DNA of 37,220 bases from a virus, in IMG/VR virus record IMGVR_UViG_3300025697_000072, positions 1-37,220 of that record. One strand, given 5' to 3'. Positions 1 through 37,220 of the stretch are shown here, in pieces (the first letter of the stretch is position 1; the number at the start of each line of letters is the position of its first letter). The notes under the pieces were generated by a model that saw only the letters and a program-made list of their open reading frames with translations, was not told where the DNA came from and did no database searches. The position numbers were made by a program, and so were the translations under genes.

Positions 1-434
1 ATATTGGCAGAGCAATAGCAGAGACTGAATACACTGAATATTATAATATGGAAGCTGGATTGGATAGCCTTAATTTAAAGAACTATCCTGTAACAACGTT
101 TACCGGTATGTGGAAAGTAACGACAAGTGCCACAGCCGTATTTAATAGTACATATTATTATATTCAGAAAGAGAGAGGGATTATAGACTTGTTAGGTGGT
201 GTGGAGTTCATAGGTGGCAATAAGAGCATTAAGGTGCAATACAAGGCTGGATATGCCACAGCAGACATACCAAAGGACTTACAGGATGCTTGCATAGACT
301 TAGTTTGTGCGCAGTATATCTTTCACAAGGTGTTAGTTAATGAGGTTGAATCAGACAAGGCAGGAGATAGAAAGACAGCACTTGAGGATTCAGCATATAA
401 AACACTAGACATATACAAAGGCGTAGCAGCATGA
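1..434 (+). CDS. Head-tail connector protein, gp6/phiE125 gp8-like (5' partial)
   Basis: The reading frame is open from base 3 and has no start in the window, so the gene begins upstream. The first visible ATG is at 48. The C-terminal half, with 'YKAGYATADIPKDLQDACI' followed by a long helix, matches the pattern of gp6/phiE125 gp8 connector proteins: a tyrosine- and glycine-containing strand, then 'P..L..A' and helices. Such proteins form the ring below the portal. The stop overlaps the next start (ATGA at 431-434), and neck and tail genes follow. The family call is by pattern only. Confidence 0.6.
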   Translation, partial: IGRAIAETEYTEYYNMEAGLDSLNLKNYPVTTFTGMWKVTTSATAVFNSTYYYIQKERGIIDLLGGVEFIGGNKSIKVQYKAGYATADIPKDLQDACIDLVCAQYIFHKVLVNEVESDKAGDRKTALEDSAYKTLDIYKGVAA

Positions 435-2173
435 GATATAAAGCAATGAGTAATTATTGGAGTGGTGGAAAGCTGTTGATTAAAAAGGGCGATATAGTTA
501 CTGATGAGGCTATGTTAAAGAAACTGGGCATAAATGTTTCCGAAAGCAAAAGCGAGCCTGTAATTACCCCAGAGGTTGTTGATGGTGGGTATATGAAGAA
601 AGGCAGTCAGATGGTCAAGAGTGATGAGAGAGAAGAGACGGGCGTTAAGGTTTGTTTAAATGTGGGTTGTGGTTCGAAGATTAAAAAGTCTGATGAAAAT
701 GAGAGATGGTTTAATTTAGACATAAGAAAATTGACTGGTGTGGATTTTACTGTTGATATAAGGACTATTGCGTTTGGAGGATTAGATGTAATTGAGGCTA
801 GAGATATATTAGAGCATTTTGGGCGCAGAGAGAGCAGAGAGATATTAGGCAAGTTAGTTAGTTGGTTAGATGGTGGCGGAAAGATAATTATACAATGCCC
901 AGACATAAAAGAAATATGGAGTGATCTAAGTGAGAGTGAAGAATGGTCAGAACGTAGGACTTTTGGCGGGCAGGATTATACAGGCAATTATCATGGTTGT
1001 GGTTGGACAATAGGCATGATGGAAAGAGAATTAAACAAACTGGGTGTAGACGTAGTCAAGAAAAGCAATCTAGCAAAGAATGGAAAAAGGCAGGGTAATT
1101 TCTACATGGAGGGAATTAAGAGAGGCAAAGATATAGATGTTGGCTTAATAACAATAGCTGGTAAGAGATGGGCTAATATGGGCATGGCATATTTAAGCGA
1201 TTGCGTGTATTGGCTAGGTGGATTATGTGAGGTGTTAGGCAAGAGAGTATCAACGGTTAAATGCGGAATAGAAGAAGGAGGCTACACCAAAAAAGGCAAC
1301 TTAGCAAGTGATGGTATATATGTTGCGGATTGGGAAGTAATGGGCAGTGTAGACGGCTTCCTTAGATTAATATTAGATAGAAAAATTAAAGTTTGTTTTA
1401 TTTGGGAATGTAGATTTAATATTGAGATACTGAAAAGAATTAGAGATAAATGCGAGTGTATGGTTATAGTTACAAATGACTATCAGGCAATAAGAGACAG
1501 AGATAAACATTTTGGAGAGGTGGCAAAGCTAGTTGATTATGTGATTACTACTCAATCTAATGCAGAATATGGCGGAAAGGAAAAGAATATATGTATTAGG
1601 CAGGGTGTGAATTGGGAAAATTACCGAGAGGATCACAAGAAAATAAACAAAGTGGCTTTTATAGGTAACTTGAGAAGCGAAGAGAGAAGAGATTATTTAG
1701 AAACACTGGCAAAAAGAGTAGACGGAATAGATATTTATAGTCAGGATTATGCAAAGATGGGTAACTGGAGTAAGCATATTAAAATGCACCCAGCAATAGA
1801 CAGGGTAAAAATGCGTCAGGTTTGTGGAGAAACAAAAATAATAATAGGCGATAAGTTTGAGATGCGCGCAGATTTCAAGTCAGGTGCAGAACATTATTGG
1901 AGCAATAGAATATATCAGATATTGGGTAGTGGGGGTTTTTATTTAACACCATATATTGAGGGATTAGAAGAGGAATTTGAGAATGGAAAGCATATTGTAT
2001 GGGTAAAGAGTATGGATGAGATGGTTGATAAGGTTAAATACTATTCAAGATACAATGCAAAGAGAGAGAAGATCGCAAAAGCTGGATATGATTTGGCGCA
2101 CAAGAAATATAAATATGTAGATAGAGTTAGATGTTTGGTTAATGAACTAAGACAAAGAGGAGTAAACATATGA
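431..2173 (+). CDS. Fusion protein: phage N-terminal segment, SAM methyltransferase, CgeB-like glycosyltransferase
   Basis: The 580-residue protein has three parts. Residues 1-35 resemble a short phage module with 'GDIV' followed by 'KKLGI'. Residues about 72-210 look like a class I SAM methyltransferase, with 'LNVGCG' at 76-81 as the SAM loop, 'FNLDIR' as the next strand, 'DILEHF', and 'LVSWLDGGGKIIIQCPDI'. Residues about 235-575 look like a CgeB-type group 1 glycosyltransferase, with a C-terminal 'GGFYLTPYIEGLEEEF' and a 'DEMVDKVKYY' helix. ATGA overlaps join it to both neighbours. It probably transfers a sugar and methylates it or the acceptor. The acceptor is unknown; a virion protein or a host glycan are both possible. 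Confidence 0.75.
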   Translation: MRYKAMSNYWSGGKLLIKKGDIVTDEAMLKKLGINVSESKSEPVITPEVVDGGYMKKGSQMVKSDEREETGVKVCLNVGCGSKIKKSDENERWFNLDIRKLTGVDFTVDIRTIAFGGLDVIEARDILEHFGRRESREILGKLVSWLDGGGKIIIQCPDIKEIWSDLSESEEWSERRTFGGQDYTGNYHGCGWTIGMMERELNKLGVDVVKKSNLAKNGKRQGNFYMEGIKRGKDIDVGLITIAGKRWANMGMAYLSDCVYWLGGLCEVLGKRVSTVKCGIEEGGYTKKGNLASDGIYVADWEVMGSVDGFLRLILDRKIKVCFIWECRFNIEILKRIRDKCECMVIVTNDYQAIRDRDKHFGEVAKLVDYVITTQSNAEYGGKEKNICIRQGVNWENYREDHKKINKVAFIGNLRSEERRDYLETLAKRVDGIDIYSQDYAKMGNWSKHIKMHPAIDRVKMRQVCGETKIIIGDKFEMRADFKSGAEHYWSNRIYQILGSGGFYLTPYIEGLEEEFENGKHIVWVKSMDEMVDKVKYYSRYNAKREKIAKAGYDLAHKKYKYVDRVRCLVNELRQRGVNI

Positions 2174-3276
2174 AGCTGGGATTTTGGGGTTGTTTAAATC
2201 AGAGTGGGGTTGGTTATGTGGGAAAGAATATAATTGATGGGTTAGGCATACAGCATATAGCTTTAATCCCGAACAGAGATAAAGGCTTTAGATTAGATTG
2301 GGTAAAGGGCAGAGATTTGACTTTATTAAGTGTTCCCGTATTCCCTAGAGCGGTTATAACTGATTGGCTTAATAAGACACGCCCAGAGTTAGTTTTAGTA
2401 GTAGAGACACCTTACACACCATACTTAGGAGAAGAATGCAAGAAACGAGGCATTAAGACGGTTAATGTGGCTATGTGGGAGGGCGCAGATGACAGACTGC
2501 TAAAAGAATTTGATTATCATGTAGCTAAGTTTGATTGGGAGAAAGAACATTTAGAAAAAGTCATGGGATATAAGACGTTAGATTTAACGCTCCCAACAGA
2601 GATTCACAAGTTTAAGTTTAAGAAAAGAACAGGCAAGCCTAAAGTTTGGTTACATGTAGCTGGATATGGTGGATTCTGGGGCAGGAAGAATACAGAGTTA
2701 ACAATGAGGGCTTTTAGTGAGAGTAAAGCATTCGGAACATTGATTGTAAGGGCGCAGTTAGATAATTGTGCTTATTCAAAGATGTTTCATTCTAAGAGCA
2801 GGAATTTAACAGATATAGCAGAAGAGCTAGGAGACGATAGAATTATACTAGAGATAGGTAATAAGACAGGTGAGAATTATGAACTTTACGACGATAGTAT
2901 AGACGTATCAATACAGCCCAGTAGGATTGAGGGTTATGGACTTAATATTATAGAGCCTATGATGTGTGGGATTCCAGCAATTACGACAGATGCGGAGCCT
3001 ATGAGTTGCTGGGGATTTAAGCCTTATCTTGTCAAGACGGAATTTGTAACGATTGGTAAGAAACGATTTGACAAAGATAGAGGAGAGTTTACACATCAAG
3101 GAGTTAGGTTTGCTGATATAAAAGAAAAGGATTTGACCGATACAATAAACCTAATAGCCGATAGAGACATAGGAGATGACAGCGAAAAGGCAAGAGAAAG
3201 AATGGAAGCTATGGGCTGGGATAAACAAAGAGATAGTTGGATTGATGCGCTTGAAGGAGTGATACATGGTGGTTAA
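2170..3276 (+). CDS. Glycosyltransferase, GT4-like (GT-B fold)
   Basis: A 368-residue protein. The C-terminal half carries the sugar-nucleotide site expected of GT4 enzymes: 'VSIQPSRIEGYGLNIIEPM' followed by 'CGIPAITTDAEPM', where the E-G-x-G-x-x-x-x-E-x-M pattern is the usual nucleotide-sugar contact. 'KPKVWLHVAGYGGFWGRKNTE' opens the second Rossmann half. A GAGGAG ribosome binding site precedes the ATG, which overlaps the previous stop. It lies between the fusion enzyme and an FkbM methyltransferase, so the three probably build one modified sugar. The family call is firm; donor and acceptor are unknown. Confidence 0.85.
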   Translation: MKLGFWGCLNQSGVGYVGKNIIDGLGIQHIALIPNRDKGFRLDWVKGRDLTLLSVPVFPRAVITDWLNKTRPELVLVVETPYTPYLGEECKKRGIKTVNVAMWEGADDRLLKEFDYHVAKFDWEKEHLEKVMGYKTLDLTLPTEIHKFKFKKRTGKPKVWLHVAGYGGFWGRKNTELTMRAFSESKAFGTLIVRAQLDNCAYSKMFHSKSRNLTDIAEELGDDRIILEIGNKTGENYELYDDSIDVSIQPSRIEGYGLNIIEPMMCGIPAITTDAEPMSCWGFKPYLVKTEFVTIGKKRFDKDRGEFTHQGVRFADIKEKDLTDTINLIADRDIGDDSEKARERMEAMGWDKQRDSWIDALEGVIHGG

Positions 3277-4093
3277 AAATATGTTCGGTGATCCAATGTT
3301 TTTAGATGAGTTAAATACGCTAAGTTTGAGAGATGGCAAGGTATATGAGCCGTTTGAGATAGAGATAGTAAGGCAAGTTGTAAAAAAGGGCGATACAGCA
3401 ATAGATATAGGCGCAATGATAGGCTGTTATACTTTAGTGTTTGCAAAGCTAGTTGGAGATAAAGGCAGGGTGTTTGCTTTTGAGCCGGAGATAGAGAATT
3501 ACAAGGTATTAAAAAAGAATATCAATATAAACGGATACAAGAATACAAAATTAGCATATATGGCAGTATCAGACACAGACGGAGAAATGAAATTATATAT
3601 ACATGATGGTAATTTAGGAATGCACACTTTAGGCAAGCCTACATATTGGAAACCGAAAGGGGTTGTTAATGTTAAAACTGTTCGGCTAGATACTTGTTTT
3701 AGTAAATCTTGTAGAGTTGATTTTTTAAAGATGGATATTCAGGGCGCGGAGGGATTGGCTTTAAAAGGGATGGAGAGAACATTGCGAGACAACAAAGACA
3801 TTAAAATGATTATAGAGTATTCACAGCCGGAGTTAGAAGTATTGGGAGATCCTAAAGAATGTTTAAAATTACTTACTAAGTATGGCTTTAATATATTTGA
3901 GATAGACAGATGGCAGAGGAACGTGCACAGCCGGATGTTGAGGAAAATTACAGATATAGATAGGTTTTCAAAGCGGTGTTATGAGGGATATTATGGTAAT
4001 TGTAAATGGATGAATTTGTTTTGTGTTAGGGATATAAAGGGCTTGCCAAAAAGAATATTAGATAGAATAGGCAGTGAGGATATTAATGATTGA
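3266..4093 (+). CDS. FkbM-family SAM-dependent methyltransferase
   Basis: A 275-residue protein with the FkbM pattern: 'GDTAIDIGAMIGCYTLVFAK' (SAM loop), 'VFAFEPEIENY' (acidic end of strand 2), 'VRLDT', and 'VDFLKMDIQGAE', the hallmark K-x-D-I-x-G-x-E. FkbM enzymes usually O-methylate sugars or polyketides. AAGGAG lies about 7 bases before the ATG, and the start overlaps the glycosyltransferase stop. The gene probably methylates the sugar added by the upstream enzymes. The last 20 codons overlap an alternative GTG start of the next gene. Confidence 0.88.
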   Translation: MVVKNMFGDPMFLDELNTLSLRDGKVYEPFEIEIVRQVVKKGDTAIDIGAMIGCYTLVFAKLVGDKGRVFAFEPEIENYKVLKKNININGYKNTKLAYMAVSDTDGEMKLYIHDGNLGMHTLGKPTYWKPKGVVNVKTVRLDTCFSKSCRVDFLKMDIQGAEGLALKGMERTLRDNKDIKMIIEYSQPELEVLGDPKECLKLLTKYGFNIFEIDRWQRNVHSRMLRKITDIDRFSKRCYEGYYGNCKWMNLFCVRDIKGLPKRILDRIGSEDIND

Positions 4094-4571
4094 GATTAAT
4101 GTATTTATAAAGAACCCAGAGAAGATAACTAAGATGCTTGGTGTAGATGCGAACAAAGCGGTAAATCAGGGCATGAAGTTTGCAATGAGAAGAAGCATGA
4201 TTAGATTAACTAATCATATTGCAGAACATAAATTACATGGACAGGTATTGAATGTAAGAACGAATAGATTGAGGGGTAGTATTCAAAAGAGCGCAGGCAA
4301 TAGAATAAATGTAACAAGTGATGGAATATCAGGAACGGTAGGTACTAACGTGATTTACGCCAAAATACATGAATATGGAGGTGTTATAAAGCCAAAGACT
4401 AAGAAAGCACTTAAATTTAAAATAGGAAATACATGGGTAACTACCAAACAAGTTAAAATGCCGAAAAGACCATATATGAAACCAAGTTTACAAGAAAAAT
4501 CAAGTGATATTATAAGATTCTTTTCAGAAGATGTGCAGAAATATGTTGAGAAGATTTGGAGGGTAGCATAA
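4086..4571 (+). CDS. HK97 gp10-like neck protein
   Basis: I start this gene at ATG 4086, 6 bases after GAGG. An upstream GTG at 4074 is in frame but would have a poorer site. The 161-residue product is basic and contains 'VGTNVIYAKIHEYGGVIKPK' and 'MPKRPYMKPSLQEK'. The A-x-x-x-E-Y-G-G and R-P-[FY]-[ML]-x-P-[AS] motifs are the signature of HK97 gp10/virion morphogenesis proteins at the head-tail joint. It overlaps the FkbM stop by 8 bases, so neck genes resume directly after the sugar genes. Confidence 0.82.
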   Translation: MIEINVFIKNPEKITKMLGVDANKAVNQGMKFAMRRSMIRLTNHIAEHKLHGQVLNVRTNRLRGSIQKSAGNRINVTSDGISGTVGTNVIYAKIHEYGGVIKPKTKKALKFKIGNTWVTTKQVKMPKRPYMKPSLQEKSSDIIRFFSEDVQKYVEKIWRVA

Positions 4572-5030
4572 ATGTCGAGACCAGAAACAGTATTTACTAA
4601 TGCAGTTAATGTGTTAAAAGCCGCGCAGAAATCAGGCAGTAACTTATCTTATGTTAGAAAAGTATTTGAGGGATGGCGCGACAATATACCTGATAGTCAG
4701 ATTCCTTGTATTATCTTAGAGCCTGCTGATATAAAAGAGACTATCCCGTTTTTTGAAGAAGAATCGGAATTGTATTTTGGAATAACAGTAACAGGGATAA
4801 TAAAGATGTTTGATAAGGATAAACAGATAGTTGGAGATACAAGACATAAGGGGGTTTTAGATATATGCGAAGATATTAAAAAGACTTTTGGAGGTGATAT
4901 ATATTTAAGCGGTGAAGTGATGACAATTCAATTCCCAGATACAAATTTCGATTATACATCATACCCAATCCGAACAGTGGATATAACAATGTTGTGCAGA
5001 CTAAGAACCAAATATAAAACGCGGACATAG
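4572..5030 (+). CDS. Putative tail completion/terminator-type protein
   Basis: A 152-residue protein between a gp10-like neck gene and the tail tube gene, the usual place of the tail terminator (HK97 gp11-like). The middle, 'IPCIILEPADIKETIPFFEE', and the later 'LDICEDIKKTF' and 'YPIRTVDITMLCRL' fit the alternating strands and helix of that small fold. No diagnostic residues are visible, so the call rests mainly on position and size. GGAGGG precedes the ATG. Confidence 0.5.
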   Translation: MSRPETVFTNAVNVLKAAQKSGSNLSYVRKVFEGWRDNIPDSQIPCIILEPADIKETIPFFEEESELYFGITVTGIIKMFDKDKQIVGDTRHKGVLDICEDIKKTFGGDIYLSGEVMTIQFPDTNFDYTSYPIRTVDITMLCRLRTKYKTRT

Positions 5031-5039
5031 GAGAATAAC

Positions 5040-5084
5040 ATGGATAATAAAAGAAATATAAATCTAAAACATGGAGGTGAATAA
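5040..5084 (+). CDS. Possible 14-codon micro-ORF before the tail tube gene
   Basis: ATG 5040 is preceded by AGGAGA and runs 14 codons to a TAA at 5082-5084, one base before the tail tube ATG at 5086. Its last codons contain the GGAGGTGA ribosome binding site of that gene. It may be translated and couple to the tail tube start, or it may be chance. The peptide shows no recognisable feature. Confidence 0.25.
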   Translation: MDNKRNINLKHGGE

Positions 5085-5085
5085 A

Positions 5086-5979
5086 ATGTATAGAAGTAAA
5101 TTAGCGACAATAGGAGTTACGACAGAAACTGCTTATGGCACAGAGAATGCGGTAACAGCTAGTGATTTATTCTTAGCAAAGGATATTGTGGTTGCGCCAG
5201 AAGGTGACAAGATAGATAGGAACTTACAAAGGTCTTTCTTAGGAACAATGCCTCATTTAATCACAAGAGAAAGAGTGCATATAACGTTTACCACAGAGAT
5301 TAGGGGTGATGGTAGTAAACTAAAACCTTTATTTCTGGCTTGTGGTATGTCTGAAACAGGAGACGTTTACACTCCAGTTAGTGGCAGCTTTAGTAGCGCA
5401 ACTTTATATGCTTATTTTGGTGGTAAGTTATATAAATCTCTTGGAGTAGTTGGGACGTTTGAGGTTGTATTAGAGGCAGGAGAACCCGGACTGATTAATT
5501 GGGATTTGTATGGGCTTTATAGTGTGCCAACAGATGCAACTATCGTAGCAGGTGATGATTATGAAAGCTTAGTGCCTCCAACAGTAGAATCAAGCAAGTT
5601 TACTATTGGAAGTTATGCTGGAATAGTTCAGGCAATAAATGTAGCCATGAATAACGAAGTAGTGCAAAGGCTTAATGTTAATGCGAGTTGGGGTCTTGAG
5701 GGTTATATAGTAGCAGATAGAGCAGTTGCAGGTAGTTTGAACCCAGAGGAGGTTACAGAGGCTACAAATAGCTTTTGGGCTGATTGGCAGGCAGGAACAA
5801 GCAAGGCTCTTTCAGTTACAGTTGGCAGAACAACGGGGAATAAGTATAGCATAGCTTGTCCGGTTGCAATGTATGACAGCATAGGTGCAGCAGATAGAGA
5901 AGGTGTGAGGGTGTACGAGATGCCTGTCTCATATCATATTAGTAGCGGGAACGATGAGATAACTATTTCGTTTATCTAA
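5086..5979 (+). CDS. Major tail tube protein
   Basis: I choose ATG 5086 because GGAGGTGA lies 5 bases before it; an in-frame ATG at 5071 has no such site. The 297-residue product begins 'MYRSKLATIGVTTETAYGTE', a common opening of siphophage tail tube proteins. It then has 'DKIDRNLQRSFLG', 'RVHITFTTEIRGDG' and 'LKPLFLACGM', typical of this fold, where the two-domain protein stacks as hexamers to build the tube. It sits directly before the G/GT chaperones, as expected, and is probably among the most abundant virion proteins. Confidence 0.8.
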   Translation: MYRSKLATIGVTTETAYGTENAVTASDLFLAKDIVVAPEGDKIDRNLQRSFLGTMPHLITRERVHITFTTEIRGDGSKLKPLFLACGMSETGDVYTPVSGSFSSATLYAYFGGKLYKSLGVVGTFEVVLEAGEPGLINWDLYGLYSVPTDATIVAGDDYESLVPPTVESSKFTIGSYAGIVQAINVAMNNEVVQRLNVNASWGLEGYIVADRAVAGSLNPEEVTEATNSFWADWQAGTSKALSVTVGRTTGNKYSIACPVAMYDSIGAADREGVRVYEMPVSYHISSGNDEITISFI

Positions 5980-6006
5980 TAACAAAACAATAGGAGGCAA
6001 TAAGTA

Positions 6007-6345
6007 ATGGGACTATTTACAACTAAGGAAGTCAAAGAAGTTGAAGTTGACGGAGTAAAGGTCAGGATAGGCAAGTTGACAGGCGATGATGAGGATAGAT
6101 TGCAAGACTTAGCTGGTGAGTTTAAGGTTGTCAATGGTGAGGAGAAGTTTGTATTGAGTTCGGCAAAGATGAGAGCTGAGAAATTACTACTTGCATTGAC
6201 TAAAGAGGGTTGTGGATGGGGCGAGAAAGAGCCTATAACAGCAGGTAGTATAAGAAAGCTAACGAAGTCAGCAAGGAACAAACTTTGTGAGGAAATAGAC
6301 AAGCTGGAGGCGATTGAAAGCAAAAAAAAAGACTTGCCAGCATAA
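6007..6345 (+). CDS. Tail assembly chaperone, G-type short product
   Basis: The 112-residue zero-frame product lies between tail tube and tape measure genes, the fixed place of the lambda G-like chaperone. It begins with 'VEVDGVKVRIGKLTGDDEDR', a small strand-rich domain, followed by charged helices. Near its end the message has a run of nine A residues (6322-6330). The frame ends 15 bases after that run. AGGAGG lies about 10 bases before the ATG. By analogy with lambda it should coat the tape measure during tail assembly. Confidence 0.8.
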   Translation: MGLFTTKEVKEVEVDGVKVRIGKLTGDDEDRLQDLAGEFKVVNGEEKFVLSSAKMRAEKLLLALTKEGCGWGEKEPITAGSIRKLTKSARNKLCEEIDKLEAIESKKKDLPA

Positions 6346-6515
6346 GAAAGATACATCAGGGAGCGAGAGGACTGACAAAGTTTGATGAGGAGATTGTATC
6401 AGATATGAATGTTTGGAGAATATGCAAAGAACTACACAAGTTGCCAAGTGAGGTATTAAGCGAGCCGAATAGAAATATAGAGTTAATGCAGATGATTATT
6501 GGAGAAGAGAGATGA
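6007..6515 (+). CDS. Tail assembly chaperone, GT frameshift fusion
   Basis: The coding frame changes at 6330: read 6007-6330 in the first frame, then slip back one base and continue 6330-6515. This gives about 169 residues, 108 from G and 61 from T. The -1 frame is open to TGA 6513-6515, which overlaps the tape measure ATG at 6512. The T part contains 'LTKFDEEIVSDMNVWRICKE' and 'LPSEVLSEPNRNIELMQMII', a helical pattern with the conserved L-P-S typical of T domains, which bind the tape measure. Neither the T segment nor its start site would be found by a standard gene caller. Confidence 0.85.
6322..6331 (+). promoter_or_regulatory. Programmed -1 ribosomal frameshift site
   Basis: Nine A residues at 6322-6330 are followed by G. 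In the zero frame this gives A_AAA_AAA, a slippery heptamer that allows both tRNA-Lys molecules to re-pair one base back. Zero frame then stops at 6343-6345, while the -1 frame stays open for 61 codons. I see no obvious downstream pseudoknot; A-rich sites often work without one. Confidence 0.85.
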
Positions 6516-8875
6516 CTGCCGCTGAATTACAATTGGTTATTAAGGCAAAGGATCAAAGCGCAAAGACTTTTGCTGCAATCAAGGGGCGTTTAAATAAGTT
6601 TAAATCACAGGTTGGTAGGGTTGCAGGTGGGTTTAAGCAGTTATCAAAGAAATTTGGTACAGCTATGTCATCTATTGCCCGCAAGGCAAAATGGGCAGCA
6701 TTGGTAAGTGTGGCAGCATTAACAGCAATGGTAGTGGGTTCTATTCGGCAATTTGCTAAGTTGGAAAGCGGATTGCTTGATGTGCAAAAAACAACAGGAA
6801 TGTCTAATGAGGAAATACAAAAGTTGCGAAAGAGTTTAGAAGACCTTGTATTAACTACTCGAGGAATGACAATGGAAGGGCTTTTAAATGCTTCTGCAAT
6901 TGCAGGGCAGTTGGGTATTACTGGAGCAAAGAATATAGGGATTTTTTCAAAGGCGGTAGAAATGATGGCTATTGCTACAAAATATACAGCAGAAGAAGCG
7001 GCATTGGATTTGGCTAAAATTGCAAAAGTAATGGATTTGCCTATTTCTAAATCAGAAATGTTAGGTGATGTAATGAATGAATTATCTAATAGAACAACTG
7101 CTTTTGCTACACAAATTGGAGAGATAACGAAAAGAGCAGGTTCAATGGGTAAGTCATTTGGATTGACTATCCCTGAAATGATGGGATTTGCAGCAACAAT
7201 GATTGATGTGGGTGTAGAAACACAAGTAGGAGCTTCTGCAATCACAAGAATGCTTAATCAGGCATTATTAGATACGAAAGGATTTGCTCATGTAAGTGGA
7301 ATAGAATTTACTAGATATGCAAAGTTGGTTAAAGAAAAGCCGATGGAAGCAATAAAGAAATTTATTGAAGGACTTGGTAAGTTGGATAAATTTAAGAGAA
7401 TGGCAGCGTTAAAGGAATTACAGCTTAGTGGAGTAAGGGTAGCTCCTGCACTTGTAGCCATGAGTGAAAACACTAAATTACTATCAGATAATATAAAAAT
7501 CGCCAATGATCAATGGAAAGAAGGCGGTAGTTTGATGGATGAATACAAAAACAGAGCTAAGGGATTAACCTCTGCTTTTGCGAGTATTTGGGAAGCTGTA
7601 AAGATTATGGCGAGTAGATTGGGTGATGTTTTTGCGCCAGCATTAAAGGCGTTTGCTACTAAATTCCAGAAGCAGATAAAAGCTGTTAAGGATTATGTAG
7701 ATAAGTCGGGAATTGTAAAGGCATTTCAAGATATGTTTGGGGATATAATGGGAAGCATGACTAAACATCTTAATATATTGGGATGGATTAAAAAGGTTTT
7801 TGGTGAAACACCAAAAGAAGTTCAGGCTAATTTAGAGAAATGGAAAATAAAGTTTATTGGTTTTAGGAAATGGCTTGAGACGAATTCTCCATTTGAAGGA
7901 ATAAAAATAGCATTTCAAGATATATTAAAATATGTTAAATGGGTTGGATTAGGTATTGGGCTTTTAACATTAGCAACTAATAAATGGTTATCGGCATTAG
8001 CTGCTGTGCTTATCGCTTTTGAGGCTATTCAGAAGATAAAGGACTGGGGAAAAATCGGCATAATGAAGCAGAAATATGAAATGGCTGAGGATTATAGAAA
8101 AGCAATTAAAAGATGGGAAGAGGAATTGAAAAAGCATCAAGGTACATCGAGAGAAAAATATTATAAAGAAGGATTGGAAGCAGCGAAGGCATATTTTAAG
8201 GGATATACAGAAGAAGGCGACAAATTAGCTGAAAGTATTTATGGTGGCAAAGCACAAACTCCTGTATCTGATTTTTTAAGAAAAACATATTTAGGGGTTG
8301 ATGAAGGTACTAAGGGTGGCGGAATTAGTGAATGGATTAAAAAATTCAAAGCAGATATAAATAGACTTGGTAAAGAAGGATTGGGAACAGTTGACAAGCA
8401 AGTCAGTAAAGAAAAAGATATAAACGTAATACTAGAAGAAAGAAAGAAAATATATGATGTTTTACAAAAAGCAAGGACAAAGATACCAGTAGAAACGGGT
8501 AGAGTAAGAATGTTGGGAAAAGAAACAGTATTTACAAAAGAACAGCCAGCAGGAATGTCGGCAGAAAAGTTTGATAAAACAGTAGAAGAGGCTAAAGCAC
8601 AAAATCAAGCATTAGATAGTTTAAAAACAGCAACAGAGGGTATGCTGGGTGATTTAATACAAAACTATAAAGACGGCAAGATTGGCATAGATGAGTTGGC
8701 AAAGGGTATAGCCAGTTATGCGGCTAAGGCAAATAGTTTAAGTAGCGCGCAAACAAGTGTGCTCAGTCAAGTTATTAGCGTAGTTAAAAACCTTACAAGC
8801 AAAACAAACGCACTTGCAAAAACAGTTACTAGACAGGCATTAAGTATAAAACAATTAGCAGGACAAGGAGCATAA
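6512..8875 (+). CDS. Tail tape measure protein, TP901 family
   Basis: A 787-residue protein. The N-terminus, 'ELQLVIKAKDQSAKTFAAIK', is the usual opening of TP901-type tape measures. 'FAKLESGLLDVQKTTGMS' and 'AAEEAALDLAKI'-like helices with 'MGFAATMIDVGVETQVGASA' belong to the TP901 core. Hydrophobic segments lie near residues 58-77 and about 470-505, suited to crossing the host membrane during DNA entry. The length would set a tail of roughly 120 nm if each residue spans about 1.5 angstrom. GGAGAAGAGAG precedes the ATG, which overlaps the GT stop. Confidence 0.92.
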   Translation: MTAAELQLVIKAKDQSAKTFAAIKGRLNKFKSQVGRVAGGFKQLSKKFGTAMSSIARKAKWAALVSVAALTAMVVGSIRQFAKLESGLLDVQKTTGMSNEEIQKLRKSLEDLVLTTRGMTMEGLLNASAIAGQLGITGAKNIGIFSKAVEMMAIATKYTAEEAALDLAKIAKVMDLPISKSEMLGDVMNELSNRTTAFATQIGEITKRAGSMGKSFGLTIPEMMGFAATMIDVGVETQVGASAITRMLNQALLDTKGFAHVSGIEFTRYAKLVKEKPMEAIKKFIEGLGKLDKFKRMAALKELQLSGVRVAPALVAMSENTKLLSDNIKIANDQWKEGGSLMDEYKNRAKGLTSAFASIWEAVKIMASRLGDVFAPALKAFATKFQKQIKAVKDYVDKSGIVKAFQDMFGDIMGSMTKHLNILGWIKKVFGETPKEVQANLEKWKIKFIGFRKWLETNSPFEGIKIAFQDILKYVKWVGLGIGLLTLATNKWLSALAAVLIAFEAIQKIKDWGKIGIMKQKYEMAEDYRKAIKRWEEELKKHQGTSREKYYKEGLEAAKAYFKGYTEEGDKLAESIYGGKAQTPVSDFLRKTYLGVDEGTKGGGISEWIKKFKADINRLGKEGLGTVDKQVSKEKDINVILEERKKIYDVLQKARTKIPVETGRVRMLGKETVFTKEQPAGMSAEKFDKTVEEAKAQNQALDSLKTATEGMLGDLIQNYKDGKIGIDELAKGIASYAAKANSLSSAQTSVLSQVISVVKNLTSKTNALAKTVTRQALSIKQLAGQGA

Positions 8876-12619: not shown

Positions 12620-13372
12620 ATGAAAATATTACTAATTGTTTTATGTATTTTAATTGCTAGTCCTGCTATGTGTGGATTGCAATTTAATGGAAGTAATCAA
12701 GAAGTTAATTGTGGGAATATCACAACATTAAATTCGTTATCTGCAATAACGATTATGGCGTGGGTATGGACGGAAGATTCTGGTGCTGGCGGATCTCCAT
12801 ACGGTGGTATAGTAGCAAAAGGTGCTGGTTCTTCAAGTGGCGAAACATGGAGAATGAGTTGGACAGGGAGTACTTGGACATTTGTTGTAAGGAGCGGAGG
12901 AAGTTCGGCTAACGTAAACTCAGTGACAAATATAGAAGATGGTAATTGGCATTTGTTAGTTGGAACATGGGACAAGAGTGTGAATAGTGGAAAATGTACT
13001 GTATATACAGATTTAAATAAAGTAATTTCAACTACAGGTATCACAACAGATTTATCAAATGTTACTACTCCAGTTCAGATAGCAAGATACAATTATGCTA
13101 ATAGGCATTTTGCTGGGAAAATATTTGATGTACGTGCTTACAACCGAGCCTTATCATTAGCAGAAATACAAACACTCTATCACTCAAGAGGTTCTGATAA
13201 TATAGTTAATGGATTAGTTGGTAGATGGTTAATGAATGAGAAATCTGATGGTTCTACTGCAACGGTTGCAAGTTCTGTAATAGACATATCAGGGAACGGT
13301 AATGACGGGACACCAGCAAATAGTCCTATATATGTACCAGCACCAACAAAATTAATAAAGAGACCAAGATGA
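12620..13372 (+). CDS. Secreted LamG/concanavalin A-like lectin domain protein
   Basis: A 250-residue protein. Residues 1-18, 'MKILLIVLCILIASPAMC', look like a signal peptide, with cleavage near A-M-C/G. The rest fits a LamG-3 fold: 'LQFNGSNQEVNCGN', 'ITIMAWVWTEDSGAGGSP', 'NWHLLVGTWDKS', 'FAGKIFDVRAYNRALSLAEI' and 'GLVGRWLMNE'. The 'G-x-[IL]-x-[DE]-V-R-x-Y-N-R-A-L' stretch is the hallmark of the family. Such domains bind sugars. GAGGGA precedes the ATG one base after the fibre stop. Residue C18 is not in a good lipobox, so I do not call it a lipoprotein. Confidence 0.82.
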   Translation: MKILLIVLCILIASPAMCGLQFNGSNQEVNCGNITTLNSLSAITIMAWVWTEDSGAGGSPYGGIVAKGAGSSSGETWRMSWTGSTWTFVVRSGGSSANVNSVTNIEDGNWHLLVGTWDKSVNSGKCTVYTDLNKVISTTGITTDLSNVTTPVQIARYNYANRHFAGKIFDVRAYNRALSLAEIQTLYHSRGSDNIVNGLVGRWLMNEKSDGSTATVASSVIDISGNGNDGTPANSPIYVPAPTKLIKRPR

Positions 13373-14175
13373 AGAAACAATTATGTATAGGGTTAATGGT
13401 GTTTTTAGTATGTAGTTTTATTTGGGAAATGAGTGGAATTGCAACGCAGTTTGATAAACCATTATTCACTTTTGTTCAAGTTACCGATACCCATATCATA
13501 CATGGTAAATCAGTAAAAAACATTATCAAGGGAATAGAAAGCATTAATTCTCTAAGACCACAACCAAAATTTGTTGTAGTTACTGGAGACCTTATTCATG
13601 GGGAAAAACCAAAAGAGTCATTTCGCCTTTATAAGAATGTTTTTTTTAGACTTAGGGCTAATCATTATTCAGTATATGGTAACCATGATAGCACAAAAAA
13701 ACTATACCAAGATATGATAGGGGAACTTAATTATTCTTTTAATATTTATCCTTATCATTTTATTGTGTTGGATAATATAGATAAAAGTCTAAAATATAAA
13801 GATACTTGGTGGTGTGGATTTTCAAAAGAAACAACTAACTGGCTTAAAAACCATCTTCAATCCGTAAATAAAGAAACACCTATTATTTTATTTTGTCATG
13901 CTTCTATTTTTCGAGAACCTAGTTTCTGGAAAGACTTTCCGGGAGATTGTTGCAACTATAAACCAGTAATAAAAATGCTTGAACCTTATAATGTGGTAGC
14001 TTGGTTTCAAGGACATGCTCATTGCAATGATATAGAAAGAGTTGAAGGTATTGACTATATCACTACAATTTGTTTGAATAATCTCGAATATGACAGAAAT
14101 CGTAAAATTGGTTATAGGGTAGTATCTGTATATAAAGATAGAGTCGAAAGTATTTTTAAACCAATAAGAAGATAG
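13369..14175 (+). CDS. Exported calcineurin-like metallophosphoesterase
   Basis: A 268-residue protein with all metal-binding motifs of the calcineurin-like fold: D40-T-H42, G73-D74, G104-N-H-D107, H177 in 'LFCHAS' and G215-H-A-H218. Residues 1-25 (KK, then a hydrophobic 'LCIGLMVFLVCSFIW') act as a signal peptide or membrane anchor. Such enzymes hydrolyse phosphomonoesters or phosphodiesters. An exported form could act on envelope phosphates such as teichoic acid, LPS or phospholipid. The ATG overlaps the LamG stop (ATGA). Its location among fibre and lysis genes is unusual. Confidence 0.88.
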   Translation: MKKQLCIGLMVFLVCSFIWEMSGIATQFDKPLFTFVQVTDTHIIHGKSVKNIIKGIESINSLRPQPKFVVVTGDLIHGEKPKESFRLYKNVFFRLRANHYSVYGNHDSTKKLYQDMIGELNYSFNIYPYHFIVLDNIDKSLKYKDTWWCGFSKETTNWLKNHLQSVNKETPIILFCHASIFREPSFWKDFPGDCCNYKPVIKMLEPYNVVAWFQGHAHCNDIERVEGIDYITTICLNNLEYDRNRKIGYRVVSVYKDRVESIFKPIRR

Positions 14176-24778: not shown

Positions 24779-25188
24779 TGCTAAACAAATACGAAAAGCT
24801 AACCGAACCCCACAAGATAATAAGCAATATATTTGATAATATAAACGCAGGAATGGAAGCAGGTAAAAAGCCAGCAGATAAAGCGATTGAGGAGTATGAG
24901 AGAAAATTTGATAAAACAAGAGTAGTAAAGAAAACATCGAATAAGCTACTGAAAGCAATGCTCAGGGATTTAAAAAAAGAGAAAGTTATTCTAAAGAAGT
25001 CATTATCTAAGGCCGGAGAATTTATTGAGGAACTAAAGCAATCCGAGGTAATAGCAAACGTGATAATTAAATCCACAAATGGAGTTATAAAAAAGTTGAA
25101 AGCAGAGAATAAGGAATTAAAAGCTAAACTCCGCAGGTTTGACGAGATATTTAACAATTTTGAATCTAAAAGAAAAGGTATAAAATGA
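24778..25188 (+). CDS. Coiled-coil early protein
   Basis: A 136-residue charged protein dominated by long helices ('VVKKTSNKLLKAMLRDLKKE', 'NGVIKKLKAENKELKAKLRR'), probably a coiled coil. There is no membrane segment or cysteine cluster. It overlaps the C5 methyltransferase start (ATGA). Function unknown. Confidence 0.55.
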   Translation: MLNKYEKLTEPHKIISNIFDNINAGMEAGKKPADKAIEEYERKFDKTRVVKKTSNKLLKAMLRDLKKEKVILKKSLSKAGEFIEELKQSEVIANVIIKSTNGVIKKLKAENKELKAKLRRFDEIFNNFESKRKGIK

Positions 25189-25823
25189 AAGTATTAAATC
25201 TTTACGCAGGAATTGGTGGAAATAGGAAGTTGTGGAAAGATGTTGATGTTACTGCTGTTGAGCTTAATCCAAAGATAGCAGCTATATATCAAGACTTCTT
25301 TCCACAAGATAAGGTTGTTGTGGGAGATGCACATGAGTATTTGCTAGAGCATTATAAAGAGTTTGATTTTATATGGAGTAGTCCACCTTGTCCGAGCCAC
25401 AGCGATATTAGGAGAATGGGTGTTTCCGCTGGAATGTATGAGGCGAAATATCCCGATATGAAGTTATGGCAGGAGATTATATTATTGAAATATTTTTGTA
25501 AAAATAAATATGTTGTGGAAAATGTTAAAAGTTATTATAAGCCGTTAATAAATCCACAAGAAAGTGGAAGGCATTATTTTTGGGCTAATTTTGCAATTAG
25601 AAACATAAACCTACCACCACTAAAAATTAGAGATATACATAAAAAAGAGATAAGAAACATGGTTAATTCTGAACTAGGCTTACACATCCTAAACGAAAGC
25701 AAAATAAATAGATACCCGGAATTATTTAATAACCAAAAGGAGAACAATCGTGATCATAATACCAATAACCAAGAAGAAAGCAGAAGAACAGGGATTCACG
25801 CCAATAACAGACTTCTATTGTAA
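25185..25823 (+). CDS. DNA (cytosine-5) methyltransferase with altered C-terminus
   Basis: A 212-residue protein with 'LNLYAGIGG' (motif I, residues 4-12), the catalytic C69 in 'WSSPPCPSHS' (motif IV) and 'VVENV' (motif VI, E112). It is short but has the core motifs, as in many phage enzymes. After 'RYPELF' the last about 31 residues read an alternative frame of the next gene and look unlike protein. One extra T in the T-run near 25727 would give a stop directly after that point, so a 1-base loss has probably extended the gene. It would methylate phage DNA against host restriction. Confidence 0.85.
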   Translation: MKVLNLYAGIGGNRKLWKDVDVTAVELNPKIAAIYQDFFPQDKVVVGDAHEYLLEHYKEFDFIWSSPPCPSHSDIRRMGVSAGMYEAKYPDMKLWQEIILLKYFCKNKYVVENVKSYYKPLINPQESGRHYFWANFAIRNINLPPLKIRDIHKKEIRNMVNSELGLHILNESKINRYPELFNNQKENNRDHNTNNQEESRRTGIHANNRLLL

Positions 25824-36748: not shown

Positions 36749-37220
36749 ACATTAAAGATAGATTTAAAACGGCAGTAGGTATAATGAATGGCACGATTGA
36801 CCCAGTAAGCGCAATTAAGGAGGTTAACCCAGTAGTAGCAAGCTCGATAGGTGTAGGTGATAACAGCAGGGGTAGATTACAATCAGGCGATTATCAGGCT
36901 ATGATTGAGAATTATAGAAGCTGGCAATATGCAGCAGCAGGAGTAATAGCAAGAAGTGTAGCAAGAGTACCATTGAGATTATATAAGAAGAAAGCAGTAA
37001 AAGGATCGCCGAAGTTAAGCAAGCAAATCAAAGAGCTAGTTAAAGACAAAACATATGAGGGCAATCTAGTTAAATTATGGGTATCAAAGGGGTATGAGGT
37101 AGAAGAGATAAACGAACATCCATATTTGGAACTAATTAAGGCGGTTAATCCTATGATGAATGGCTTTGAATTGTGGGAGTTGACAAGTCTATATCTTGAT
37201 ATTATAGGTAATTGCTATTG
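36745..37220 (+). CDS. Portal protein, HK97-type (3' partial)
   Basis: The 158 visible residues include 'IENYRSWQYAAAGVIARSVA' followed by 'RVPLRLYKK', and 'EEINEHPYLELIKAVNPMMN' with 'GFELWELTSLYLDIIGNCY'. The S-W-x-Y-A-A-x-x-x-I-A-x-x-V-A-x-V-P-L-x-[LI]-Y and N-P-x-M-x-[GS]-F-E-L-W patterns are standard for HK97-type portals. The gene runs off the window. The portal ring is the DNA channel and the base of head assembly. Confidence 0.92.
   Translation, partial: MNIKDRFKTAVGIMNGTIDPVSAIKEVNPVVASSIGVGDNSRGRLQSGDYQAMIENYRSWQYAAAGVIARSVARVPLRLYKKKAVKGSPKLSKQIKELVKDKTYEGNLVKLWVSKGYEVEEINEHPYLELIKAVNPMMNGFELWELTSLYLDIIGNCY

Follow-up and report, generated by a model that had tools for sequence, protein, structure and literature searches.

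Sugar-transfer and methyl-transfer genes within the head-to-neck block of an uncultured phage: a candidate system for glycosylation of the virion

Introduction

Glycosylation of virions by enzymes of the phage itself has been documented for mycobacteriophages: according to two papers, Che8, Corndog and Myrna have glycosylated proteins, the glycans are carried on the C-terminal ends of subunits of the capsid and the tail tube, and glycosylation of the capsid requires gp110 in Che8 and gp38 in Corndog (PMC12363180, PMC12619734). Here, three genes of an uncultured phage are compared with such systems. The window, by which we mean the whole stretch of DNA analysed, is the linear IMG/VR contig IMGVR_UViG_3300025697_000072 of 37,220 bases. 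Near its 5' end, genes for a methyltransferase (MT) fused to a CgeB-type glycosyltransferase (GT), a GT4-type glycosyltransferase and an FkbM-family O-methyltransferase, referred to below as the module, lie between a head-tail adaptor (HTA) gene and a gp10-like neck gene. We give a probability of about one half to the reading that a late, soluble, cytoplasmic system glycosylates and O-methylates subunits of the head, neck or tail of the phage itself, building short, partly O-methylated glycans on them.

The study of mycobacteriophage virion glycosylation that both papers cite is Freeman 2023. In the Che8 record, gp108-gp110 form a run of three glycosyltransferase genes close to the end of the genome. 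Che8 gp108 (L201 8172-9347), annotated only as a glycosyltransferase, was found to carry a C-terminal Methyltransf_24 domain (PF13578, 3.1e-13, above the cut-off), and its best solved relatives are sugar O-methyltransferases, namely mycinamicin III 3''-O-methyltransferase and CalS11. Judging from these matches, the virion glycans of Che8 may be methylated.

The enzymes described here share with Che8 and Corndog the presence of several phage-encoded soluble GTs and, with Che8 gp108, a pairing of GT2 and methyltransferase. Unlike theirs, the genes of the module stand among head and neck genes in an unrelated phage and belong to the CgeB, GT4 and FkbM families. Bacterial CgeB and FkbM enzymes of polysaccharides and spore coats, where CgeB has its role, resemble those of the module in matching PF13524, PF05050 and TIGR01444 above the cut-offs, whereas the enzymes of the module are phage-borne, fused to an MT domain and encoded in frames overlapping head genes. 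Serotype-conversion (gtr) modules, which include a membrane GT and a flippase, likewise encode phage GTs, and the GT2 of L007, a close relative of the window, matches GtrB-like PHROGs; in contrast to gtr modules, no membrane GT or flippase-like gene was found in the module, either by hydropathy or among the + strand genes of 431-4093. According to PMC7029224, pelagimyophage host-recognition clusters also combine GT8 and other GTs in a region with structural genes; those are clusters of T4-like myophages, located by tail-fibre genes and read as modifiers of host lipopolysaccharide, whereas the GTs of the module's clade lie between portal and gp10. Literature searches on virion glycosylation, on FkbM with capsid and on GTs in viral structural modules listed no paper whose title or abstract opening describes the arrangement.

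Results

The gene identities, their order, their overlaps and the insertion between neck genes had been proposed in an earlier sequence-only reading of the window, and all were borne out by Pfam, NCBIfam and PHROG matches and by the coordinates of the open reading frames (ORFs; Table 1). PF13524 covers residues 420-569 of the fusion with 69.9 bits against a Pfam cut-off of 25, PF00534 reaches 35.7 bits in GT4 (cut-off 26.4), and the FkbM gene lies above both of its cut-offs (PF05050, 80.6 vs 22.7; TIGR01444, 102.6 vs 37.7). In GT4, the stretch EGYGLNIIE fits the pattern E-x7-E, which we take to be that of GT4 enzymes. The least secure assignment in the module is the methyltransferase half of the fusion, which is without a direct family match of useful score in Pfam (CheR, 0.07) and NCBIfam. 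A bacterial protein that is itself a Methyltransf_11 aligns with residues 68-212 (1.1e-9), and weak matches were obtained with PDB 3mcz_A (0.07), between the domain profile and a PDB methyltransferase (0.042), and with phage MTs (hhalign, 5.5%); a model of the fusion from a two-sequence alignment had a mean pLDDT of 31.8. The 19-residue hydropathy maxima of 16 enzymes tested ranged from 0.72 to 1.77 and none reached a mean of 1.8, so that all 16 look soluble rather than membrane-bound.

The setting suggested earlier, that of an actinobacteriophage, was not supported by the searches made. The GC content of the window is low (30-41% per kilobase), its first 12 kb gave zero megablast matches against 50,697 phage records, and the closest phage match of the L007 capsid protein, at 33%, is an Oceanotoga phage. 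In the phage search, GT4 of the window had no match and its CgeB a single weak one. A genome scan for proviruses by means of related portal genes returned 19 contigs, all from metagenome-assembled genomes (MAGs); these come from a mixture of phyla, and one carries an archaeal name. Judging by the sample numbers, the environmental DNA may stem from an Antarctic lake.

All three module genes are joined to their neighbours by overlapping stops and starts. The adaptor and the fusion share ATGA at 431-434, the fusion and GT4 share ATGA at 2170-2173, GT4 and FkbM overlap by 11 nt (3266-3276), and FkbM and gp10 by 8 nt if gp10 begins at ATG 4086, its probable true start, which is preceded by GAGG at 4076. 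The ORF list holds no further + strand gene between 431 and 4093. A scan of 1-6500 detected no terminator inside the module, the single terminator-like site lying outside it on the other strand, and promoter-like sites were fewer (15) than in shuffled sequence (23.1).

The head genes that precede the adaptor, about 7.7 kb, are absent from the window contig and are supplied by L007, a contig of 32 kb that is 93% identical over window positions 1-5117 and also overlaps the final 126 bases at 97% (blastn). Its order is portal-MuF (L007:2-1702; Phage_portal 7.9e-48, Phage_Mu_F 6.7e-11), GT8-like, a truncated second GT8-like, protease, major capsid, GT2, HTA and the three-gene module. The GT2 after the major capsid gene scores 98.4 bits against a Pfam cut-off of 23.3, and the GT8-like gene after the portal stays below its cut-off (20.7 vs 24.3 bits). 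Two full GT8-like genes are present in a third contig, L013. The clade thus has sugar enzymes at three separate places from portal to gp10; scans of the window and L007 with PF00534, PF13524, PF00535 and PF05050 revealed no extra copies. The second GT8-like copy measures 60 aa in L007 (3491-3673) and is full length in L013 (6880-7581) and L060; since it is truncated or full depending on the lineage, gain or loss of GT8 copies is under way.

Between the window and L007, the ratio of nonsynonymous to synonymous substitution (dN/dS) was 0.085 for the fusion, 0.056 for GT4 and 0.185 for FkbM, the last from few changes. GT2 gave 0.086 and 0.119 in two pairs, and for the pairs available the values were 0.094 for portal, 0.108 for protease and 0.137 for capsid. 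A comparison of the major capsid gene between L002 and L007 was left out, its coordinates being out of frame. These ratios indicate purifying selection on the genes for which close relatives were compared. As the three frames are open and conserved in a 93% relative with a dN/dS of 0.06-0.19, they are not chance ORFs. Along 1-5117, identity to L007 is about 89% in CgeB and GT4 but reaches 98% in FkbM and 100% in both gp10 and the gene that follows it, a jump that we take as a sign of recombination within or near FkbM.

The site of the module was followed in more distant phages. A portal scan of viral contigs yielded 416 relatives, the best 80 of which were taken, and hidden Markov models (HMMs) seeded with genes of the window and of L007 served to label the ORFs of 121 loci. 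Among the 77 loci treated as distant, 37 have both HTA and gp10, and in 31 of these the two genes overlap, abut or are 12 nt apart, with no intervening gene; the other six have a gap of 310-356 nt with one ORF of 108-147 aa on either strand. Two contigs were counted twice (L005/L070, L016/L079), so that the 35 contigs divide into 29 and 6. Because the HTA-gp10 slot lacks genes in most of these distant relatives, the three-gene insert of the close clade is most simply explained as derived, and as a precise one.

GT and MT genes were also found in the structural blocks of other relatives. In a Pfam survey of 49 virus contigs and one MAG, 50 records in all, matches were obtained to PF00534 in 8, to PF13524 in 8 (6 over the cut-off), to PF00535 in 9 and to PF05050 in 3. 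Nine of the 49 virus records have GT matches, and in five, namely the window, L007, L122, L081 and L125, these lie in the structural block. L122 carries GT2, MT, CgeB, a gene weakly like UDP-glucose dehydrogenase, and GT4 between its terminator-like and tail-tube genes; its CgeB is 33% identical to the fusion over 260 residues, and the GT4 of the window is 28% identical over 367 residues to that recorded as L171, the value also found for L122. In L081, GT2 and a GT2-MT24 fusion lie immediately 3' of gp10; in L125, an 884-aa protein with three GT2 stretches is encoded immediately 3' of the capsid gene; and in L135, the MAG contig, a GT4 gene separates capsid from HTA.

Methyltransf_24 was detected in 7 of a slightly different set of 50 records. 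In five of them (L076, L089, L096, L101, L106) it lies between a post-capsid decoration-like gene and HTA, and the remaining two matches are the L081 fusion and a gene within the L102 glycan island. As a solo gene of about 160-170 aa, Methyltransf_24 follows the decoration-like gene in L076, L089, L096, L100, L101 and L106. FkbM was considered as a marker of virion modules and rejected: the phage matches inspected adjoin DNA-metabolism or hypothetical genes (HTVC112P, Braelyn) or tail fibres (phi3LM21), and since they sit in such other settings, FkbM alone predicts nothing.

Some of the GT proteins end in what may be small domains. Standalone small domains are encoded between the capsid and HTA genes in L091, L099 and L119, and by coordinates in L051. 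Six domains were picked by eye from search output for a profile, among them L178 from a MAG and L119, which lacks a phrog_2616 match. The N-terminal end of L125 matched this profile with an hhalign probability of 84%, a score reached by 1 of 300 controls; an earlier profile test had given 72.7% and 0 of 250 controls. The C-terminal end of L135 matched phrog_2616 (3.8e-4 for a 43-aa piece, 0.011 for the whole protein, 1.6e-4 in the genome scan) and failed against a domain profile built without L135 (1.8%, 17 of 300 controls), which leaves the phrog_2616 match as the single support for its putative end domain. The two adjoining GT proteins of L081 (L169 9490-11742) have in common a 49-residue end (59% identical), which is C-terminal in one protein and N-terminal in its neighbour, and this end did not match the small-domain profile (0.3%). 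For the fusion of the window, a phrog_2616-like head domain in the N-terminal 40 residues was rejected as unproven, the likeness being by eye only: profile tests failed (hhalign 5.3% with 3 of 250 controls; 2.4% with 10 of 300), phmmer found its own clade only, and tblastn in phages found nothing. An extended version of the virion reading, in which a wide family of uncultured phages builds multi-sugar, O-methylated glycans on its own particles with enzymes coded in the assembly block, which in some lineages a small fused domain would anchor to the head as it grows, is held here to be improbable, although the standalone domains between capsid and HTA genes would fit such a tether; if it were true, glycosylation would be a step of virion assembly.

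Discussion

If the phage particle is the target, the module would be translated with the head and neck genes through the overlapping stops and starts read from the sequence. Soluble GT8-like, GT2, CgeB-type and GT4 enzymes, as classed by their matches, would then add host nucleotide sugars sequentially to a virion protein, with acceptor, sugars and order as presumed here. The MT half of the fusion and FkbM, methyltransferases by class, may cap or tailor the sugars by O-methylation. The glycans would presumably remain on the particle and could alter how it adsorbs, how stable it is, or whether host, grazers or defences recognise it.

The sequence-only reading had named a virion target as the likeliest role and had proposed looking for the missing capsid genes and for related phages. 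The missing region was found in L007, with more GTs in it, and GT and MT genes recur in the structural blocks of relatives, which supports this role. The argument that the position among structural genes favours a virion target is weakened: the position is not decisive, given that the Che8 GTs and the islands of four relatives lie outside the block. The suggestion in that reading that methylated sugars on virions would be a new variant is weakened, since Che8 gp108 already pairs a GT2-type region with a sugar-type methyltransferase in a virion-glycosylation operon; a GT together with such an enzyme has a precedent there, and the pairing itself is not new.

Several points weigh against a virion target. 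The Che8 GT operon stands outside the structural genes, so that a place in the structural block is not needed for such a target, and block position is neither required for it nor proof of it. No significant similarity was found between the Che8 GTs and the module enzymes (best blastp E 0.10; no match with their own HMMs). In four of the nine virus records with GT matches (L071, L097, L098, L102), these lie outside the structural block, as different glycan islands. The contigs were picked by their portal gene, which over-sampled the structural block; by our own estimates, the 49 virus records total about 0.99 Mb and the block can fill up to about 40% of this. With four lineages inside the block and a single kind of island outside it, the comparison does not settle the matter, and a statistical excess is not claimed. 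Both the glycosylation and its virion acceptor are predicted here from gene content.

Alternatively, late enzymes might remodel the host envelope, altering surface glycans such as O-antigen, capsule or wall polymer and thereby blocking superinfection or the sticking of virions to debris. We consider this possible, if on the unlikely side. The best NCBIfam scores of GT2 are with enzymes of the TuaG, WcaA and PglI type, all below cut-off, FkbM is weakly like RfbT, below the RfbT cut-off, and relatives of the L102 type have whole glycan or phosphonate islands; the pelagimyophage authors read the GTs near tail fibres as host O-chain enzymes and favour the envelope for them (PMC7029224). However, flippase, polymerase and membrane GT were not found in the module, the hydropathy of 16 out of 16 enzymes is not what membrane proteins would have, the sugar genes are interleaved singly with head genes, which those of the module overlap, and relatives make repeated use of sites within the head-to-tail block.

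It is also conceivable, and in our view quite improbable, that the genes are cargo, independent genes of sugar metabolism that settled where the late operon tolerates gaps and that act on a small molecule or on another target unrelated to the virion. HNH endonuclease genes fill comparable gaps in relatives, so these gaps accept unrelated inserts, and the GT sets of the four other relatives differ among themselves. Against this, purifying selection on the module is as strong as on structural genes, no terminator was found between its genes in the scan of 1-6500, and the GT and MT classes recur. Hypermodification of phage DNA, with GTs and MTs decorating modified bases, is very improbable: phage GTs that glycosylate DNA are known (cited in PMC12619734), and a weak C5-methyltransferase-like gene lies at 25185-25823 of the window, but TET/JBP (PF12851) and thymidylate-synthase-type genes (PF00303) were each found in 0 of 8 records, fragments that include the window, and the GT genes lie in the head block and not by DNA metabolism.

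Should glycosylation of the virion hold in these uncultured phages, glycans on the particle would count as a trait that recurs among phages. The gene order provides a rule for searches, namely GT and MT genes located from the portal gene to that of the tail tube, and the role of phage glycans where antibodies do not exist becomes a testable question.

Coordinates and further features

The features at the two ends of the window are collected in Table 1. The full-length homologue of the truncated adaptor is found in L007 at 7723-8265 (180 aa, phrog_442 5.9e-17). For the tail terminator candidate, Pfam and PHROG profiles gave no family match.

Table 1. Features of the window at and around the module
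Feature	Position	Strand	Evidence
Head-tail adaptor (HTA)	3..434	+	phrog_442 6.6e-11; 5' part lost at contig end
MT-CgeB glycosyltransferase fusion, 580 aa	431..2173	+	PF13524 2.8e-19
GT4-type glycosyltransferase, 368 aa	2170..3276	+	PF00534 8.1e-9; phrog_2170 glycosyltransferase 5.2e-12
FkbM-family O-methyltransferase, 275 aa	3266..4093	+	PF05050 2e-22; TIGR01444 2.4e-29; phrog_8156 1.3e-34
HK97-gp10 / Phage_tail_S neck gene	4074..4571	+	PF05069 4.1e-8; PF04883 1.1e-6
Tail terminator, probable	4572..5030	+	place after gp10; homologues of relatives in same place
Major tail protein, probable	5071..5979	+	phrog_290 tail protein 8.3e-17
Portal gene 5' part, cut at contig end	36745..37218	+	37095-37220 overlaps L007 1-126, blastn 96.8%

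Upstream of its terminase, L102 (contig IMGVR_UViG_3300025889_013162; L164 1807-14892) has a phosphonate-type cassette, which comprises PEP mutase (1.7e-43), part of a TPP decarboxylase, Fe-alcohol dehydrogenase, cytidylyltransferase, CDP-alcohol transferase, two B12-radical-SAM genes, RmlD and GTs; similar genes are present in L162, L163 and L165/L166, and a literature search listed no paper with a title on such a cassette. On the L122 contig, two adjoining genes downstream of the tail genes (L167 15179-17774) show CxxxCxxC-type stretches and look radical-SAM-like by eye. In the late region of the window, 12620-14175 encodes a LamG/ConA-like lectin-domain protein (PF13385, 2e-18), and behind it comes a metallophosphoesterase-like gene whose start is signal-like.

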